DNA of 64,000 bases, from assembly GCF_014189505.1 (NCBI RefSeq), contig NZ_CP050301.1:3727501-3791500 (forward strand). The letters are read 5' to 3'. The notes under the pieces were generated by a model. That model ran no database searches and was not told where the DNA came from. It was given only the letters and a program-made list of their open reading frames with translations. The position numbers and the translations under genes are program-made. This DNA comes from Phyllobacterium sp. 628 (lineage in GTDB: Bacteria; Pseudomonadota; Alphaproteobacteria; Rhizobiales; Rhizobiaceae). Of the stretch, positions 1-50,109 are shown piece after piece. The stretch's first letter is position 1; every line of letters starts with the position of its first letter.

Positions 1-330
1 GCGCACGCCGGGCATCAGATGATCCAGCATCCAGCGCGTGCCGATGCTGCCGTCCTGCGCCTTGACCGTCACGGCAATGGTAAATGGCCGTGACGGGCTC
101 GATGACAGCGTGTAGGTGCGCAGCACGGCTTCGGGCTGTGTTGGCAGCTCGAAGGTCATGAACTGTCCCGGCTCATAGCGAAACCAGTTCTGATTGTCCG
201 AGCGGAAGGTAAACGTCTTCACATTCGGGGCTTCCTCAATGATCGACAGACACTCCAGCAGGTGCAGCCGGTCATTCCATGGCTGCATCTGGTCGAGGTG
301 CGGGTAAGACTGAGGAACGCCCATATTCAT
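1..330 (-). CDS. gbcB: GbcB-like ferredoxin/NAD(P)H reductase, N-terminal part (runs off window)
   Basis: The first 110 codons of a reductase that would pass electrons from NAD(P)H to the Rieske oxygenase encoded just upstream. The visible part is the start of a ferredoxin-reductase-type FAD-binding barrel, with a Tyr-Glu-Pro-Gly-Gln-Phe segment near residue 53 and the flavin-binding Arg-Thr-Tyr-Thr-Leu-Ser-Ser motif near residue 73. The NAD and 2Fe-2S domains lie outside the window. The start is the ATG at 330; a second in-frame ATG at 324 is also possible. It begins 8 bases after the gbcA stop, so the two are surely co-transcribed. Family assignment rests on the motif and on the neighbour; the exact electron-transfer partner is inferred. 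Confidence 0.75.
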   Translation of the reverse strand, partial: MNMGVPQSYPHLDQMQPWNDRLHLLECLSIIEEAPNVKTFTFRSDNQNWFRYEPGQFMTFELPTQPEAVLRTYTLSSSPSRPFTIAVTVKAQDGSIGTRWMLDHLMPGVR

Positions 331-338
331 TGTGTACC

Positions 339-1583
339 TTATGCTACCTTGCTGAGCCGCGTATCGCCGCCGGAAAGCCGCTCTTCCATGAACTTGCAGT
401 ACCATTCGAGGAACTGCAGCACACCACCTTCATGCTCGACCGAATAAGGGCCGGGCTCATAGGCAGGCGAGCGGATGCCGAAAGCGTTTTCTTCCACAAT
501 ACGGCGGTCCTGATCGTTGGTTTCGGTCCAGACGTGTGTCAGTTCCTCAAGATTGTAATCGACACCTTCGACGGCATCCTTGTGCACCAGCCACTTGGTC
601 GTGACCTGCGTTTCATCCGGACCAAGCGGCAGCACGCGGAAGGAAATCGCGTGGTCGCCAAGGATATGGTTCCACGTCGTTGGATAGTGGAACAGCAGCA
701 GCGAGCCGATCTGCTTTTCGTTGACGGTTTCGCTGAGCTGTTTGCCGACGGCGCGGCGTCCGGTCATCGTATAGCTTTCTGCTTCACGCAACAGCGGCAC
801 GCGGGTGGCACGGTACTGGCCGTCGTCGGACATGCGGAAAGTGCTTGGGAGGCCGGCAGCTTCGCAACGCTGCCAATGTTCGACGATTTCCGGATCATCG
901 CCAGCGCCCTGCACACCAGTCACGCTTGGCGCTTCGGGGAAGGTCTTGCACAGTTCCGGGTGGTTGGCGACGCAGTGATAGCACTCGCGATTGTTTTCCC
1001 AGACCAGCTTCCAGTTGCCTTTTTCGACGATGGTACTCTGGTAGGCAACCTTCGTTTCAGCCAGGCGATGCGGCGCAAGATATGGCTCGATCAGCGCGCG
1101 GGTGGCACTGAAATCCACCGGATTCTGAGCGAGGCAGATGAAGACATAGCCGCCGACGCTTTCGCACTGGACTGGCTTCAGACTGTGCTGGCTGGGGTCG
1201 AAATCATCGCCCATCTGGCGCGCAAACAACAGGCGGCCATCCAGTTCATAGGTCCATTGGTGATAGGGGCAAACGAGCTTGGCGGACGTGCCACGTTCTG
1301 CCGAGCAGACGCGCGAGCCGCGATGGCGGCAGGAATTGTGGAACGCACGGATCTGGTTCTGGCGGTCACGCACGATCACCACAGGATAATCGCCAACCTG
1401 CACGGTAAAGAAATTACCAGGCTTGGCGACTTCGCAATCATGGCCGATAAACAGCCAGTCGCGGTAAAAGATATTCTCCATATCCAGCCGGTAATAATCC
1501 GGATCTGAATAGAAAGCCTGTTCGAGGCCGTAGCCGGGTTTCCGGTTCTTCAGGTTCCGGAGCAGTTCATTGCGAATATCCAT
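339..1583 (-). CDS. gbcA: Rieske oxygenase, glycine betaine demethylase large subunit (GbcA-like)
   Basis: A 414-residue Rieske non-heme iron oxygenase, probably removing one methyl from glycine betaine (or a related quaternary amine) to give dimethylglycine and formaldehyde. The Rieske cluster ligands are Cys85-x-His87 and Cys105-x2-His108. The mononuclear iron site is seen in the Asn-Asn-Arg-Glu-Cys-Tyr-His motif with His203 and His208, and a later Asp in the Asn-Asp-Gln-Asp-Arg segment. The ATG at 1583 is preferred because a GAGGCGAGG ribosome-binding site precedes it and the family starts near there; an in-frame ATG at 1682 would add 33 unconserved-looking residues. A cobalamin riboswitch lies upstream and gbcB follows. 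Related stachydrine and carnitine oxygenases share these motifs, so the substrate is inferred. Confidence 0.82.
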   Translation of the reverse strand: MDIRNELLRNLKNRKPGYGLEQAFYSDPDYYRLDMENIFYRDWLFIGHDCEVAKPGNFFTVQVGDYPVVIVRDRQNQIRAFHNSCRHRGSRVCSAERGTSAKLVCPYHQWTYELDGRLLFARQMGDDFDPSQHSLKPVQCESVGGYVFICLAQNPVDFSATRALIEPYLAPHRLAETKVAYQSTIVEKGNWKLVWENNRECYHCVANHPELCKTFPEAPSVTGVQGAGDDPEIVEHWQRCEAAGLPSTFRMSDDGQYRATRVPLLREAESYTMTGRRAVGKQLSETVNEKQIGSLLLFHYPTTWNHILGDHAISFRVLPLGPDETQVTTKWLVHKDAVEGVDYNLEELTHVWTETNDQDRRIVEENAFGIRSPAYEPGPYSVEHEGGVLQFLEWYCKFMEERLSGGDTRLSKVA

Positions 1584-1690: not shown

Positions 1691-1940
1691 ATCGCCCACC
1701 GCGATCAGTCGGTTTTCAGTCCCGAGGCTGGTTTCCGGGCTCTGGAGTTGCCGTGTCGGCGGTCACGACGCCTTCCCGGGGTTGTGACCCAGTGGCTTTT
1801 ATGCCGTGTTTCACTCCAATACCGTTGCGGGGGCAGCGCCGGGTTCAAGAATGAAGAAATCCACCGGATTTCACCGCTCTATACCGGCTTCCCAATTCTC
1901 CGCCTTCCCTAGAAAAGCGGCACCTCAAGTGCTCCGATAA
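1691..1940 (-). promoter_or_regulatory. cobalamin (AdoCbl) riboswitch
   Basis: Read on the minus strand, the leader carries the conserved blocks of a cobalamin riboswitch in order: GAGGTGCC near 1926, GGGAAGCCGGT near 1890, a GCTGCCCCCGCAACGGTA block near 1828, GCCACTG near 1797, CGGGAAGGCG near 1774 and the B12 box GAGCCCGGAAACCAGCCTC at 1725-1743. A perfect GATCGC/GCGATC hairpin (1690-1706) follows and touches an AAGGAG signal, which could be the expression platform. The downstream gene is gbcA on the same strand, about 107 bases away. Such elements normally lower expression when adenosylcobalamin is abundant. Control of a betaine demethylase is not a usual target. Confidence 0.9.
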
Positions 1941-2053
1941 AAGCATTCGGCATGAAAAAAGAATAGGTGCGGAAACGACATCCCATTTACGTAAGACGAC
2001 ACCGATCGTCCGTGTACACTATGTCGCAGATTGGCGATTGAATTACCCTTGGT

Positions 2054-9203: not shown

Positions 9204-10301
9204 TCAGCTCCGCAGGGTTTTGCCGGTTTCAGCCGAGAAGAGATGTGCCTGCGACAGGTCGAAGCTCAGCTTGATGGATTCGCCCGTTGCCAGCGGACGC
9301 GGATTGAGCATGCGCGACACCCATTCCTTTTCGCCCAATGTGATGAACACCAGCGTTTCGTTGCCCAATGGTTCAGTGATCGATACCGGCAGCGACAGTT
9401 CATGCACATCGGTCGCTTCACCCGAACTCAGCCCATGACCGGTCGGATAGATATCATCAGGGCGAAGGCCGAAAATCACCTTGTCACCCGCAGCGACCTT
9501 GCTGCGAAATTCAATCGGCAGCGGCAGGCTCTGCCCACCTTTGAGAACAAGCTTGCCATCATCGACCGTGGCTTCATTCAGGTTCATCGGCGGCGAGCCG
9601 ATAAAGCCGGCGACAAAGCGCGTAGCCGGACGCTTGAACACTTCTTCCGGTGTCCCGACCTGCTCGATATAGCCATCGCGCATGATGACGATACGGTCGG
9701 AAAGCGTCATCGCTTCCACCTGATCGTGCGTCACGTAGATCATTGTTGCCTGCACCTTGGCATGCAGGCGTTTGATCTCCGTGCGCACCTGCGTGCGCAG
9801 CTTGGCATCAAGGTTGGAAAGGGGCTCGTCGAACAGGAACACTTCCGGCTTGCGCACAATCGCCCGGCCCATTGCCACGCGCTGACGCTGGCCGCCTGAC
9901 AGTTGCGAGGGACGCCGGTCCATCAGTTTTTCCAGATCGAGAATGGCAGCAGCTTCATTGACGCGCTGATCAATCTCGCTCTGCGCCAGCTTGGCGATCT
10001 TCAGCGAGAATCCCATGTTTTCGCGCACGGTCATATGCGGATACAGCGCGTAGGACTGAAACACCATCGAAATATTGCGCGCTCGCGGCGGCAGGTCGTT
10101 GACCGGCTTGCCGCCAATTTCGATGATGCCGTCGCTGATTTCTTCCAGCCCGGCAATCATGCGCAGCGTCGTTGACTTGCCGCAGCCGGACGGTCCGACC
10201 AGAGCGATGAATTCGCGGTCCTTGACCTCAAGATCGATGCCATGCACGACATCCACAGTGCCGTAGCGCTTGATCAGCTTTTTAAGGGTTACGGGAGCCA
10301 T
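9204..10301 (-). CDS. sugar ABC transporter ATPase (MsmX/UgpC family)
   Basis: A 365-residue cytoplasmic ATPase that powers the adjacent sugar importer. Walker A Gly-Pro-Ser-Gly-Cys-Gly-Lys-Ser-Thr is at residues 37-45, the signature Leu-Ser-Gly-Gly-Gln-Arg-Gln-Arg near 134 and Walker B Val-Phe-Leu-Phe-Asp-Glu-Pro near 154, followed by a TOBE/MalK-type regulatory C-terminal domain of about 120 residues. This is the carbohydrate CUT1 type. The ATG lies 2 bases after the stop of the second permease gene, so the subunits are co-translated from the operon. Confidence 0.9.
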
Positions 10302-10302
10302 T

Positions 10303-11166
10303 TTAACCTTTCACCGCGCCGAATGTCAGTCCGGACACAAGATGCTTCTGAATAATGAAGGTGAGTGTGAGTGCCGGAACGATCATGACCACGGCAAGCG
10401 CGCACATGCCGCGCCAGTCAATGGTGAATTCCGACGTGTAATCGAGAAGTCCGACAGGCAGTGTTTTTGAATTCACCGAGCGGGTGATCTGCGATGCCAG
10501 CGCATATTCGTTCCACGATGTGAGGAAGGCAAAAATACCTGCCGAGGCGATGCCCGGACCAGCCAGCGGAAACTCCACCTGCCAGAATGCCTGCCAGCGG
10601 GTGCAGCCGTCGATCTGTGCCGCCTCCGCAAGATCCTTCGGCACCTGTCTGAAGAAGCCGTCGATGAGCCAGATTGTGAATGGCACGTTCAACGCCACAT
10701 AGATCAGGATCAGCGAGAAATGCGTATCGATGATGCCGACACGGGCGAAAATCATGAACAGCGGCAGAGACAGCGCGATTCCGGGTACGGCGCGGGTCAG
10801 CATGAAGCCGAGAAAGATCGCCGACTTGCCCTTGAATTTGTAGCGGGCAAAGGCGTAGCCGCCGGCCATACCAATGATGAGCGCGATGACGGTCGACGTG
10901 ATCGAGATGATCAGCGAATTGCGGAAATATTCCCAGACCGGAATGCCGCCCTGCCCGGCGCCGCCAAACATGTTGCGATAGGCATCAAGCGAAATATCCT
11001 GCGGAATCCATACCGGAGGCTTTGCCATGATCTCGACTGTCGGTCGCAGTGAATTCAAAACGATCCAAAGGCCCGGCAGGCAGATCACCAGCATGGCGAG
11101 AAACAATCCAACGAGGTGCAGGACTTTCAGACCACGGCGCTTAAGACGATGTGTGTTGTTGTCCAT
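10303..11166 (-). CDS. sugar ABC transporter permease (MalG-type)
   Basis: A 287-residue inner-membrane permease with six predicted helices. The cytoplasmic EAA loop is clear (Glu-Ala-Ala-Gln-Ile-Asp-Gly-Cys-Thr). The true start is the ATG at 11166, giving Met-Asp-Asn-Asn-Thr-His and beginning 2 bases from the previous stop; upstream in-frame codons lie inside the other permease gene. With the MalF-type subunit it forms the channel of a CUT1 importer for the sugar metabolised by this operon. Confidence 0.88.
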
Positions 11167-12325: not shown

Positions 12326-13642
12326 TCAAAGCTTTCCTGCATCCTTCAGGATATCGGTTGCCTTCTGGGCAGCCGTATCGAGCGCTTCCTTGGAGGTCTT
12401 GTCGCCAAGGATTGCGGCTTGAAGTTCCGGATAAACAGCGTTGGAAATCTCGATCCATTCAGCCAGTGGTGGAACCGGGAATGCATTCTTCGCCGCTTCC
12501 TGGAAAGCCGCCAGAACCTCGGTCTTGTACGGATCACCCTTGGCCTGTTCGATATCCCAGGCCCAGACAGCCGTACGCGTCGGCAATGGACCGGCTTTCG
12601 CTTCCAGCTTCTGGCTGTCTTCATTGGTCAGCCACCAGACGAGCGAAGCAGCTGCTGCCTTGTTGGCGCAGTTTTCCGTGACCGAGAAGCCATGGCTGCC
12701 GGACCAGCCGGTGCGCTTGCCTGACGATCCCGCCGGCTGAACCTTCACACCGACATTACCCGCAACCTTCGAGGATTTCGGATCGTTGAAAAAGCTGGCC
12801 CAGCCCGGCCAATCCAGATTGATGGCGATGGAACCGGACGCAAAGCCCTGCCCAAGATCATCCCAGAGATAGTTGGTCGTTCCGGCCGGAACAGCCTTCG
12901 CCTTGTAGAGATTGACGAACCAGTCGAGTGCCTTGATGCCAGCAGCAGAATTGAACGCGGGCTTGCCGTCCTTGTCGATATATTCGCCGCCCTCAGCCAC
13001 CAGCATTTCGTAAAAACGGCCGTTGATTGCCTCTTCCTTGCCGGCAAACTGCGTGCCGTAAAAGTCAGGCGCCTTGGTGAAAAACTCTGCCTGATCGGTG
13101 ACCTGCTGCCATGTGTCGGGCGGTGTCAGATCATAATTATACTTGGCCTTGAACGCCTTCTTGTTGGCTTCATCGGCATAAATGCTCTTCTGATAATACA
13201 GCGCCGAAACATCGAACTGCGCGCGTGGCAGCATGACCAGCTTGCCGTCCAGCGTTGATGCCTTGATATTGGCAGGAACGAAGGCGGCAATTTCTTCCGC
13301 CGGAATCAGCGCTGTCAGGTCGGTATAGATACTTGGATACTGTGGTGCGAATGACGAGTGGTTCGAACCGACACACCACTTCAGGCTGCCCGATGCAATG
13401 TCAGACTTGATCTCTTTGTCGAGTTCGAAATGATTCTTTTTCGACAGGATATTGACCTTGGCACCGGTCAGCTTTTCCCATTCGCCAATGCGTTCATATA
13501 GCGGCTCATATTGCTGGCCGCCAATCAGCTTGGCATCAATGGTTACGCCTTCAAATTTGCCCGGCAGTTCAGCACCGATGGCAAGGCTCGCGCTCATAAG
13601 AGCGATAACGCCAGCGGAAACGCTGGCAAGCAGATTTTTCAT
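12326..13642 (-). CDS. sugar ABC transporter substrate-binding protein
   Basis: A 438-residue periplasmic extracellular solute-binding protein family 1 member. The N-terminus is a signal peptide (Met-Lys-Asn-Leu-Leu, a hydrophobic stretch, then Ala-Ile-Gly-Ala near residue 23). The ATG at 13642 is chosen for its GGGAGGAA ribosome-binding site; a longer start would disrupt the signal peptide. It is the first gene of the minus-strand operon, and a promoter and a CCCATATATGGG palindrome lie upstream. The ligand is inferred to be a 6-deoxyhexose or its derivative from the catabolic genes. Confidence 0.87.
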   Translation of the reverse strand: MKNLLASVSAGVIALMSASLAIGAELPGKFEGVTIDAKLIGGQQYEPLYERIGEWEKLTGAKVNILSKKNHFELDKEIKSDIASGSLKWCVGSNHSSFAPQYPSIYTDLTALIPAEEIAAFVPANIKASTLDGKLVMLPRAQFDVSALYYQKSIYADEANKKAFKAKYNYDLTPPDTWQQVTDQAEFFTKAPDFYGTQFAGKEEAINGRFYEMLVAEGGEYIDKDGKPAFNSAAGIKALDWFVNLYKAKAVPAGTTNYLWDDLGQGFASGSIAINLDWPGWASFFNDPKSSKVAGNVGVKVQPAGSSGKRTGWSGSHGFSVTENCANKAAAASLVWWLTNEDSQKLEAKAGPLPTRTAVWAWDIEQAKGDPYKTEVLAAFQEAAKNAFPVPPLAEWIEISNAVYPELQAAILGDKTSKEALDTAAQKATDILKDAGKL

Positions 13643-13695
13643 GCAAATTCCTCCCGATTTTCCCAGAGTGCCGCCTCCCGGCACAAATTATTGCA

Positions 13696-13707
13696 CCCAT
13701 ATATGGG
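13696..13707. promoter_or_regulatory. perfect palindrome, candidate operator of the IclR regulator
   Basis: CCCATATATGGG is a perfect 12-base palindrome about 55 bases upstream of the binding-protein start. On the minus strand a TTGACG box (13745 to 13740) is followed after 17 bases by TTGTAT, so the palindrome would lie just downstream of the start of transcription, a good position for repression by the divergently encoded IclR protein. The binding link is inferred. Confidence 0.4.
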
Positions 13708-13789
13708 CGTCTCATTCATATACAAACATTATCACACTTGACCGTCAAGCGCGAAACGCTTTCCAATGAAGATAATCTTCGTATATGCA

Positions 13790-14058
13790 TTAGGTCGTAC
13801 ACTCATAAATCTGTTCGAAATGGCGCCTGAAACGGCAAGAAGATGCGAGGAGAGGCGCGAAGGGCGGGGCCTTTCCCCCGGCTGAGCGGCTCGACACTGC
13901 AGCTTGCAGCCGTTTCGGCGCCTAGGATATGGTCCATTTGCCCGGCTACAGCGTCGCAAAGGCTCGAGAATGGATAAACATTCCCATCGCCTTTGCTCCT
14001 TGTCTCCGAACAAATGGCCTCATACCATTTCAGCCAGATTTATGAGTTTACGACCTAG
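13790..14058. repeat. 269-bp element with long terminal inverted repeats
   Basis: The region between the transporter promoter and the iclR start is bounded by inverted repeats of 24 bases (13790-13813 and 14035-14058) that differ at only two positions, with a further GAAATGG/CCATTTC pair just inside. A second inverted pair lies within, GGCGCC-GAAACGGC type, at 13823-13836 and 13909-13922. It has no credible gene. It looks like a MITE or the remnant of an insertion sequence; no clear target duplication was seen. Confidence 0.6.
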
Positions 14059-14076
14059 ATAAAAGAGGGGATCGAC

Positions 14077-14880
14077 ATGACCGAAGAAGACGACAGCGAT
14101 CGCTACCGCGCGCCCGCCCTCGACAAGGGGCTGGATATTCTCGAATTGCTTTCAGGGATCGACGGCGGTCTCACTCAGGCGGAAATAGCCAAACATCTGG
14201 GCCGCAGCCCCAATGAATTTTATCGCATGCTCGACCGTCTCGTACGGCGCGGATATGTGACACGTCTTGAAGGCGATCGCTATTCGCTGACCCTGAAGCT
14301 TTTTGGCCTCGCCCAGTTGCATGCGCCGGTGCGGCGGCTTGCCTCCTACGCCACGCCATTGATGCGTGATCTTGCCGTGCTGTCCAAACAGGCCAATCAG
14401 CTCAGCGTTTTTGATCGCGGTGCAGCCGTCGTCATCGCCCAGCAGGAAGCACCGGATTATTGGGGTATCTCGATCCGAGTCGGTTCGCATATCAGTCTGT
14501 TCAACACCGGCTCCGGCCACGTGCTTCTGGCATTCCGTTCGGAGGATGAGCGCGCCATGATGATCGCCGAATACGAGAATCACGCGGATGACATCGCCCA
14601 GCCGCAGGATTTCAAAGAGCGGCTCGACCATATCCGCGAGCGCGGTTATGAAATCATGCCCAGTGCGCAAACGGCGGGTGTGTTCAACATCTCGGCGCCA
14701 ATACTTGGCCCCGACGGCCGGTCAATTGCCGCGTTGACGTGCCCCTATATCAAGCTACTCAACATTGCCGATGCTCCCGATGTTGATCAGGCGCGGGAAA
14801 TGCTCGTCGCCACCGCCAAAAAGCTGTCCGAGCTTGCCGGTGCCGACGTCATCCATTCCAGCGTTCCGCGGCAAGGTTGA
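14077..14880 (+). CDS. IclR-family transcriptional regulator
   Basis: A 267-residue regulator with an N-terminal winged helix (residues 15-75, with the Leu-Thr-Gln-Ala-Glu-Ile-Ala helix and Asn-Glu-Phe-Tyr-Arg-Met recognition helix) and a C-terminal GAF-like effector domain. The start has AGAGGGG upstream. It is divergent from the sugar operon and is followed after 13 bases by the lactonase gene, which supports a role as local repressor or activator responding to a pathway intermediate. The long inverted-repeat element sits right before it and may alter its own promoter. Confidence 0.85.
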   Translation: MTEEDDSDRYRAPALDKGLDILELLSGIDGGLTQAEIAKHLGRSPNEFYRMLDRLVRRGYVTRLEGDRYSLTLKLFGLAQLHAPVRRLASYATPLMRDLAVLSKQANQLSVFDRGAAVVIAQQEAPDYWGISIRVGSHISLFNTGSGHVLLAFRSEDERAMMIAEYENHADDIAQPQDFKERLDHIRERGYEIMPSAQTAGVFNISAPILGPDGRSIAALTCPYIKLLNIADAPDVDQAREMLVATAKKLSELAGADVIHSSVPRQG

Positions 14881-49574: not shown

Positions 49575-49830
49575 CTCCAATCGTGACGGCACTTCCGGCC
49601 ATCTTAACAAGTCGCGATCGCAGGGGTTTCTCCCCCGTATAATCGCCAGGACAAAGTGCATGAATCCATCTCACGCGAAGCCAGCCTTTGGAGATGCTGG
49701 AAACACGGACAAGTTCATGCGGCGATGGATCTACGCTAAAGCCAGCGTTGATCCGCTTTGTCTGCCTTGGTTTGGATGATCCCATCCGCACTACCGGCAA
49801 TGAAGGTGTGCCTCTTCAGTAATTCCGGCT
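49575..49830 (-). ncRNA. speF-type leader RNA upstream of ornithine decarboxylase
   Basis: The minus-strand leader matches my recollection of the alphaproteobacterial speF motif. Stems seen are GATC-ACGCT/AGCGT-GATC (49728-49753), CCAGC/GCTGG (49681-49700) and GGGG/CCCC close to the start codon (about 49626-49638). The GATC hairpin contains the stop codon of an upstream ORF. The position before an ornithine decarboxylase gene supports a regulatory RNA that senses polyamine metabolism. It was not aligned against the family model. Confidence 0.65.
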
Positions 49831-49879
49831 TATGGACAGCCGAAAGACACCAGAAAGGCCCGCACCGTCGTTGCTTCAA
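49736..49879 (-). CDS. 47-codon leader ORF of the ornithine decarboxylase gene
   Basis: A possible leader peptide starting at a TTG with GAGG five bases before it (SD at 49883-49888) and ending inside the GATC hairpin of the leader RNA. Translation through the last codons would open that hairpin. The peptide has a basic, Cys-containing start (Leu-Lys-Gln-Arg-Arg-Cys-Gly-Pro) and a Lys-Arg-His-Thr-Phe-Ile-Ala-Gly segment. It resembles in position the ornithine-sensing speFL leader of Escherichia coli, though not in sequence. A start at a later codon is possible. Confidence 0.45.
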   Translation of the reverse strand: MKQRRCGPFWCLSAVHKPELLKRHTFIAGSADGIIQTKADKADQRWL

Positions 49880-50109
49880 GATGTCCTCAGTTCGGCAGTA
49901 GGCCGTCAAACTGACTGGAGGGGTTAGTTCCAGGTACCATACCGTTTCTTCACCATAATGAAGATCGGCGGACACCCATGGGGCACGTGCGACTTTGGGC
50001 AAGCGCGATATAAGTCTAAACTTGTGTCCAATCAATGACAAATCTCGCATCTGCGAAATTTTTTTATTTATTGAACAAAGCAACGCAAATCACATAGAAT
50101 CGATGAACG

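Follow-up and report, generated by a model that had tools for sequence, protein, structure and literature searches.

A cobalamin riboswitch stands in front of the gbcAB-like operon of Phyllobacterium sp. 628, and it very probably turns this O2-dependent Rieske system off when B12 is plentiful, GbcAB being a backup for corrinoid-dependent demethylation of betaine. Two routes of betaine demethylation would be involved. One would need B12 and would be composed of an MttB-type methyltransferase, an MtgC-type corrinoid protein, an MtgD-type folate methyltransferase and a reductive activator; the other, the Rieske-type GbcAB, would be free of B12 and consume O2 and NADH.

Cobalamin riboswitch and the gbcAB operon

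The window analysed here is a stretch of 64,000 nucleotides from contig NZ_CP050301.1. A first-pass annotation, made from the letters of the window, had placed a B12 riboswitch at 1691-1940 on the minus strand and proposed a check with the Rfam RF00174 covariance model. By cmscan with Rfam 15, the aptamer (RF00174) was detected at 1709-1942 (-), so that the ends first given are good to about 20 bases, and the match was full-length (model 1-189) with a score of 103.4 bits (E = 8.9e-25), above the gathering threshold of 31.5. The aptamer contains the L5 sequence GCTGCCCCCGC and the GCCACTG and GGGAAGG blocks. Across 92 riboswitch-bearing gbcA leaders, L5 was found in 88 and GGGAAGG also in 88, the exact GCCACTG in 51 and the exact [AG]GGGAA in 21.

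The annotation had named a Rieske oxygenase as the next gene on the minus strand, and this holds. A GbcA-type ORF of 414 aa is located at 339-1583 (-), with the domains PF00355 and PF00848 and, as its best NCBIfam model, NF058607 (glycine betaine monooxygenase), which matched nearly the whole protein with 525.3 bits; as this score is below the equivalog cut-off of 670, the protein is called GbcA-like. The gbcB-like reductase gene follows, with its beginning at 1-330 (-) of the window, and runs past the window (L006, 11239-12330; the start codon is a presumed one). Its best model was NF058606 with 382.3 bits, below the equivalog cut-off of 500. The genes after gbcB, for formyltetrahydrofolate deformylase, a ketopantoate-hydroxymethyltransferase-like protein, a ferredoxin reductase and a desaturase, are convergent, so that the riboswitch can serve gbcAB alone. 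A longer operon past gbcB that holds a B12 gene was also considered and is ruled out by these convergent genes. At 9562-10960 (+) of L006, the ketopantoate-hydroxymethyltransferase-like ORF overlaps the purU ORF, and the purU model matches begin at position 71-73; a frame break is possible at this overlap.

The Phyllobacterium genome (5.25 Mb) carries five cobalamin riboswitches in all. Besides that of gbcA, one is located before nrdAB, one before bluB, one before a cob cluster and the fourth near an ABC-transporter-like ORF (nrdA, nrdB and bluB were named by HMM, whereas the cob cluster was recognised by visual inspection of the ORFs). The nrdAB genes, located on a different contig from gbcAB, encode the class I ribonucleotide reductase, which is B12-independent. 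As a separate observation, the window carries at 49702-50000 (-) an Alphaproteobacterial sRNA ar45 with a speF leader directly after it, each scoring well above its threshold.

Candidate corrinoid counterpart in the same genome

If gbcAB follows the logic of nrdAB, the genome is expected to hold a B12-dependent betaine demethylation system, and a candidate MtgBCD-type cluster is indeed present. Two methyltransferases of the MttB superfamily (PF06253) were detected with 781.4 and 659.4 bits (Pfam cut-off 25), at distances of about 22 and 9 kb from the riboswitch of the cob cluster. For the corrinoid protein, the best curated model was MtgC (NF047996) with 216.9 bits; this is below the cut-off of 370, and the protein is therefore called MtgC-type. 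The MttB cluster also includes a methyl-folate:corrinoid methyltransferase of MtgD type and a betaine-homocysteine methyltransferase of BHMT/MtgE type, both above their cut-offs, an AcsV/RamA-like activator below its cut-off, and a weak relative of methylenetetrahydrofolate reductase. The same genome thus has a B12-dependent system (MttB, MtgC-type, MtgD-type, activator) for the same kind of step as that of GbcAB, as isozyme swapping implies. According to passages of PMC12478193, MtgC and MtgD are essential in Ruegeria pomeroyi for betaine demethylation and methionine synthesis, and mtgBCDE is located beside the cob operon in S. meliloti.

Since GbcA, GbcB and MtgC all score below the NCBIfam cut-offs, the substrate of either route is putative. 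The same switch and the same swap may operate on another shared quaternary amine, for instance proline betaine (stachydrine), which we regard as possible though rather unlikely. The solved structures nearest to the GbcA-like protein were 3n0q, 3vca, which we take to be the stachydrine demethylase Stc2, and 4qup, described as a demethylase. Its match to 3vca and to 4qup (539 bits each) is about as good as that to the GbcA model (525), although these scores come from different programs and are only roughly comparable. The presence of two MttB copies points in the same direction, because the MttB superfamily spans many quaternary amines. Against this stand the best curated models, which are GbcA, GbcB and MtgC, the BHMT/MtgE-type protein above its cut-off within the cluster, and cluster ORFs that we take to resemble a choline/betaine ABC transporter. 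The swap logic itself holds for any quaternary amine, provided that both routes share it.

P13 hairpin and predicted switching

Between the aptamer and the start of gbcA lies the putative expression platform (1584-1708, -), which was analysed by ViennaRNA folding. It includes the P13 hairpin TGATCGC-GGTGG-GCGATCA (1689-1707, -), of which the loop is able to base-pair with L5, the CCCCC loop in the aptamer, and a second hairpin that is predicted to mask the ribosome-binding site of gbcA. The P13 loop motif GGNGG was found in 88 of the 92 leaders, the window included. Among 46 distinct sequences, 267 of 276 cells keep the six inner pairs of P13, and changes on both sides occur in three of these pairs. 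As judged from their complementarity, the two loops could form an L13-L5 kissing pairing.

The predicted accessibility of the ribosome site was then compared for folds with P13 enforced and folds with P13 barred. This comparison covered 76 leaders, 16 of the 92 having been dropped for their start codon, length or P13, and the start codons were located by tblastn. The mean accessibility was 0.24 with P13 enforced and 0.33 with P13 barred, in a fold model without aptamer and ligand and for leaders that are related to each other. With P13 formed, accessibility was lower in 22 leaders, higher in 2 and within 0.1 in 52. The change predicted for the leader in the window was small (0.03 to 0.12). In the P13-barred fold of the L017 leader, the 5' arm of P13 pairs with downstream leader sequence. 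These predicted folds fit a translational OFF switch, for which they are weak evidence. The leader in the window also contains a candidate mini-ORF, with an ATG at 1672-1674 after AGGAG; the L017 and L018 leaders differ there.

In the mechanism that we propose, bound B12 would let L5 of the aptamer pair with the P13 loop, and P13 would be held. The downstream leader would then fold over the ribosome-binding site of gbcA, and betaine would be handled by the corrinoid route. At low B12, P13 would open, its 5' arm could pair with the downstream leader, and the ribosome site would be freed for synthesis of GbcAB.

Neighbouring genes bear on the direction of this response. In both L166 and L167, the order is riboswitch-nrdA-nrdB, riboswitch-gbcA-gbcB and a convergent riboswitch-metE, MetE and NrdA being named by HMM. 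Either nrdAB or metE with a riboswitch of its own was found beside gbcAB in six (L166, L167, L168, L169, L188 and L209) of 30 riboswitch-bearing neighbourhoods, a set to which that of the window belongs, and in none of 16 riboswitch-free neighbourhoods; several of the six had been picked for a second riboswitch nearby, so that 6/30 is not a rate. In L168, a gene under a cobalamin riboswitch at 13307-14356 (-) was named by no NCBIfam model at 1e-40, and its product presumably resembles the DUF1852/MesX part of a B12-independent methionine synthase. Isozymes of B12-dependent enzymes are listed as a class of cobalamin riboswitch targets in a passage of PMC3766115, and an excerpt of PMC5948670 names one for metE of M. 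loti.

Activation of gbcAB in the presence of B12, the reverse of the OFF switch, is improbable. An activating corrinoid riboswitch is reported in the title of PMC10653944, and the 52 of 76 leaders without a predicted accessibility change leave room for such a mode. The changes that are predicted, however, go mostly toward OFF (22 versus 2 of 76), the neighbouring nrdAB and metE, which carry a riboswitch of the same type, encode isozymes that do not need B12, and activation would leave the association between riboswitch and mtgC, described below, unexplained.

Co-occurrence of the riboswitch and mtgC among relatives

The first-pass annotation had also proposed a survey of the pairing in related genomes, and the pairing was found to be widely kept, with a riboswitch before gbcA at 37 of 53 family loci and 55 of 80 named loci. 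The family sample was 151 genomes, 70 of which gave a gbcA match at E <= 1e-80; the 53 best loci (at least 66% identity, one per genome) were scanned with Rfam. RF00174 was located upstream of gbcA in 37 of these close loci, from many genera (17/20, 13/20 and 7/13 in three batches). With mtgC scored at E < 1e-100, 36 of the 37 riboswitch-bearing genomes contained the gene versus 1 of the 16 riboswitch-free genomes (Fisher p 4e-11); one of the 36 copies, that of G003, has an in-frame stop. On either side there was one exception: G094 has a riboswitch of only 61.3 bits and neither mtgC nor MttB, and G102 has mtgC and lacks the riboswitch at gbcA. No MttB was found either in the remaining 15 riboswitch-free genomes of the family. 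That genomes without the corrinoid route mostly have no riboswitch at gbcA is expected under the OFF switch, because it would shut off their only route. All 16 riboswitch-free genomes retain one to five cobalamin riboswitches at other sites, so that B12 control in general has not been lost. Absence of the gbcA riboswitch as part of such a general loss, considered as a separate explanation, is ruled out by these 16.

The 80 gbcA loci of named genomes, a set that shares some genomes with the family set, were classified with a nucleotide profile of the 37 riboswitches, giving 55 with and 25 without riboswitch. The mtgC gene was searched in 50 of the 80, comprising all 25 riboswitch-free genomes and 25 of the 55 riboswitch-bearing ones, and was detected (E <= 1e-60) in 23 of 25 with riboswitch versus 1 of 25 without; at 4 of the 50 loci gbcA is identical to one of the 53, and the two sets are accordingly not fully independent. 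Some of the sampled strains that lack riboswitch and mtgC alike carry the labels Rhizobium leguminosarum, R. phaseoli, Agrobacterium, Brucella and Ochrobactrum. Exceptions were Ciceribacter lividus (L148), with mtgC and no riboswitch, Rhizobium sp. Leaf371 (L112), with a degenerate riboswitch and no mtgC, and Mesorhizobium loti DSM 2626 (L111), with an intact riboswitch and scored as lacking mtgC. By a looser search, mtgC of the L111 genome was observed as broken pieces, partly at contig ends, together with eight MttB genes; the broken gene is either a pseudogene or an assembly fault. Two records in the collection, L137 and L135, are labelled Sphingomonas paucimobilis and Arenimonas and have a rhizobial-looking gbcA; they are mislabelled or contaminated, or gbcA was transferred.

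Within the family, G090 and G098, with more distant gbcA, have mtgC and no riboswitch at gbcA. No riboswitch was detected for the distant gbcA set L069-L085 (at most 59% identical), either by Rfam (0/7, L069-L075) or by nhmmer (0/17); eleven further distant matches lie outside this count. Among 289 sampled genomes of the class, five from other families have gbcA at E <= 1e-130, besides that of the window. All five contain both MttB and mtgC, one mtgC copy having an in-frame stop, and by the nucleotide profile three of the five loci have the riboswitch upstream (L211, 135 bits; L214, 96 bits; L215, 79 bits) and two do not.

These distributions also bear on the idea, put forward in the first-pass annotation, that methyl groups from betaine are supplied to corrin synthesis under B12 shortage. 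We consider it very improbable, as nothing was found in its support and the known methyl chemistry runs against it: the methyl groups of corrin come from S-adenosylmethionine, and GbcAB-type enzymes release the methyl as formaldehyde. Moreover, 15 of the 16 family genomes without the gbcA riboswitch lack mtgC, yet they keep cobalamin riboswitches elsewhere. What speaks for methyl feeding is that betaine is used when S. meliloti and P. denitrificans are grown for B12 production by fermentation, as given in parts of PMC8123684 and PMC5948670. The annotation had offered as its other explanation a need for the enzyme while a B12-dependent route is not running, and this one is supported by the MtgBCD-type cluster in the genome, the co-occurrence of riboswitch and mtgC, and the nrdAB and metE neighbours.

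Independent changes and apparent decay of the riboswitch

A DNA tree built from 99 distinct gbcA genes requires at least 12 changes in riboswitch state and at least 11 in mtgC state. Ten independent pairs that differ in mtgC could be drawn across supported branches; on average the riboswitch differed in the same way in 8.4 of them, in the opposite way in 0, and showed no difference in 1.6 (sign test on the 10 pairs, median p about 0.008). L111 was scored in this test as lacking mtgC, which biases against the hypothesis. From an earlier protein tree only three independent pairs could be drawn, and the result was not significant (p 0.25). Both are quick, unrooted gene trees, and the pair counts do not separate gain from loss.

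Three of the 92 leaders, L041, L112 and L032, have lost L5, the GGGAAGG block and the loop of P13. The genomes of L041 and L112 are without mtgC, and in both the riboswitch seems to be in decay where the corrinoid route is missing. The L032 genome has mtgC, and its degenerate riboswitch speaks against a strict rule. That the pairing with gbcA is a relic or chance placement, with co-occurrence arising from shared ancestry alone, is hardly credible: these three degenerate leaders do suggest that decay happens, but the riboswitch is present in 37 of 53 family genomes of many genera, P13 shows compensatory changes, and of the 10 phylogenetically independent pairs about 8 agree and none oppose.

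Candidate second layer of control

Upstream of the riboswitch, the window carries a direct repeat TGTCGT-N15-TGTCGT at 1975-2001 (-), a candidate operator. Repeats of the form TGTCGN-N13..17-TGTCGN, mostly with N15, were found upstream in 66 of 92 leaders with riboswitch (0.35 expected from mononucleotide shuffles) and in 39 of 41 leaders without it (0.05 expected). In total, 105 of 133 gbcA loci have the repeat upstream, a count in which some genomes occur twice, and in the window and several other examples it lies 58-59 bases before the riboswitch. From this distribution, the repeat is likely an activator site common to gbcAB operons, with the riboswitch as an added veto. We would guess that the regulator at the TGTCGN repeat is GbdR-like.

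Taken further, gbcAB may belong to a portable B12-free set (nrdAB, gbcAB and metE) under an AND-NOT gate, with a veto that tracks the corrinoid route; we see the case for and against this wider model as evenly balanced. A betaine-responsive regulator bound at TGTCGN-N15-TGTCGN would start transcription and B12 would veto translation, and gain and loss of the veto would follow gain and loss of the corrinoid demethylation route.

Implications

If the OFF switch proposed here is correct, isozyme swapping by B12 riboswitches reaches beyond biosynthesis into the catabolism of a major osmolyte, and both known routes of betaine demethylation are tied into one regulatory decision. The prediction is that B12 supply sets the fate of betaine in rhizobia, between burning with O2, with formaldehyde released, and transfer of the methyl straight to folate. 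This bears on the reason for feeding betaine to B12-producing rhizobia. The gbcA riboswitch is also usable as a genomic marker for genomes that retain both routes.

Comparison with known systems

The isozyme-swap logic of cobalamin riboswitches is already known; the pair of gbcAB and a corrinoid enzyme was not found in the literature searched. No report of a gbcA-type gene under a cobalamin riboswitch was found there either, and an older mention is possible. For the chromosome of S. meliloti 1021, part of PMC2573895 gives three cobalamin riboswitches, and none of those carries the label gbcA.

The arrangement resembles riboswitch-controlled metE and nrdAB in that the riboswitch family is the same and a B12-free enzyme would be kept off while its B12-dependent counterpart works. 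It differs in that metE and nrdAB are biosynthetic, for methionine and deoxynucleotides, whereas gbcAB encodes a catabolic demethylase of an osmolyte, and in that the counterpart is an MtgBCD-type system, unlike those of metE and nrdAB. The glycine betaine monooxygenase GbcAB of Pseudomonas and Chromohalobacter provides the best curated models for both genes here; the scores, in contrast, remain below the equivalog cut-offs, and a cobalamin riboswitch is present in 37 of the 53 close family leaders. With MtgBCD of Ruegeria pomeroyi, as presented in passages of PMC12478193, the Phyllobacterium genome shares the same kinds of parts, located near cob genes as in S. meliloti. The main text of that paper mentions a riboswitch only in the title of a cited glycine riboswitch paper, and in those passages GbcAB is treated as found in bacteria without MtgBCDE, whereas the genome of the window has both types.
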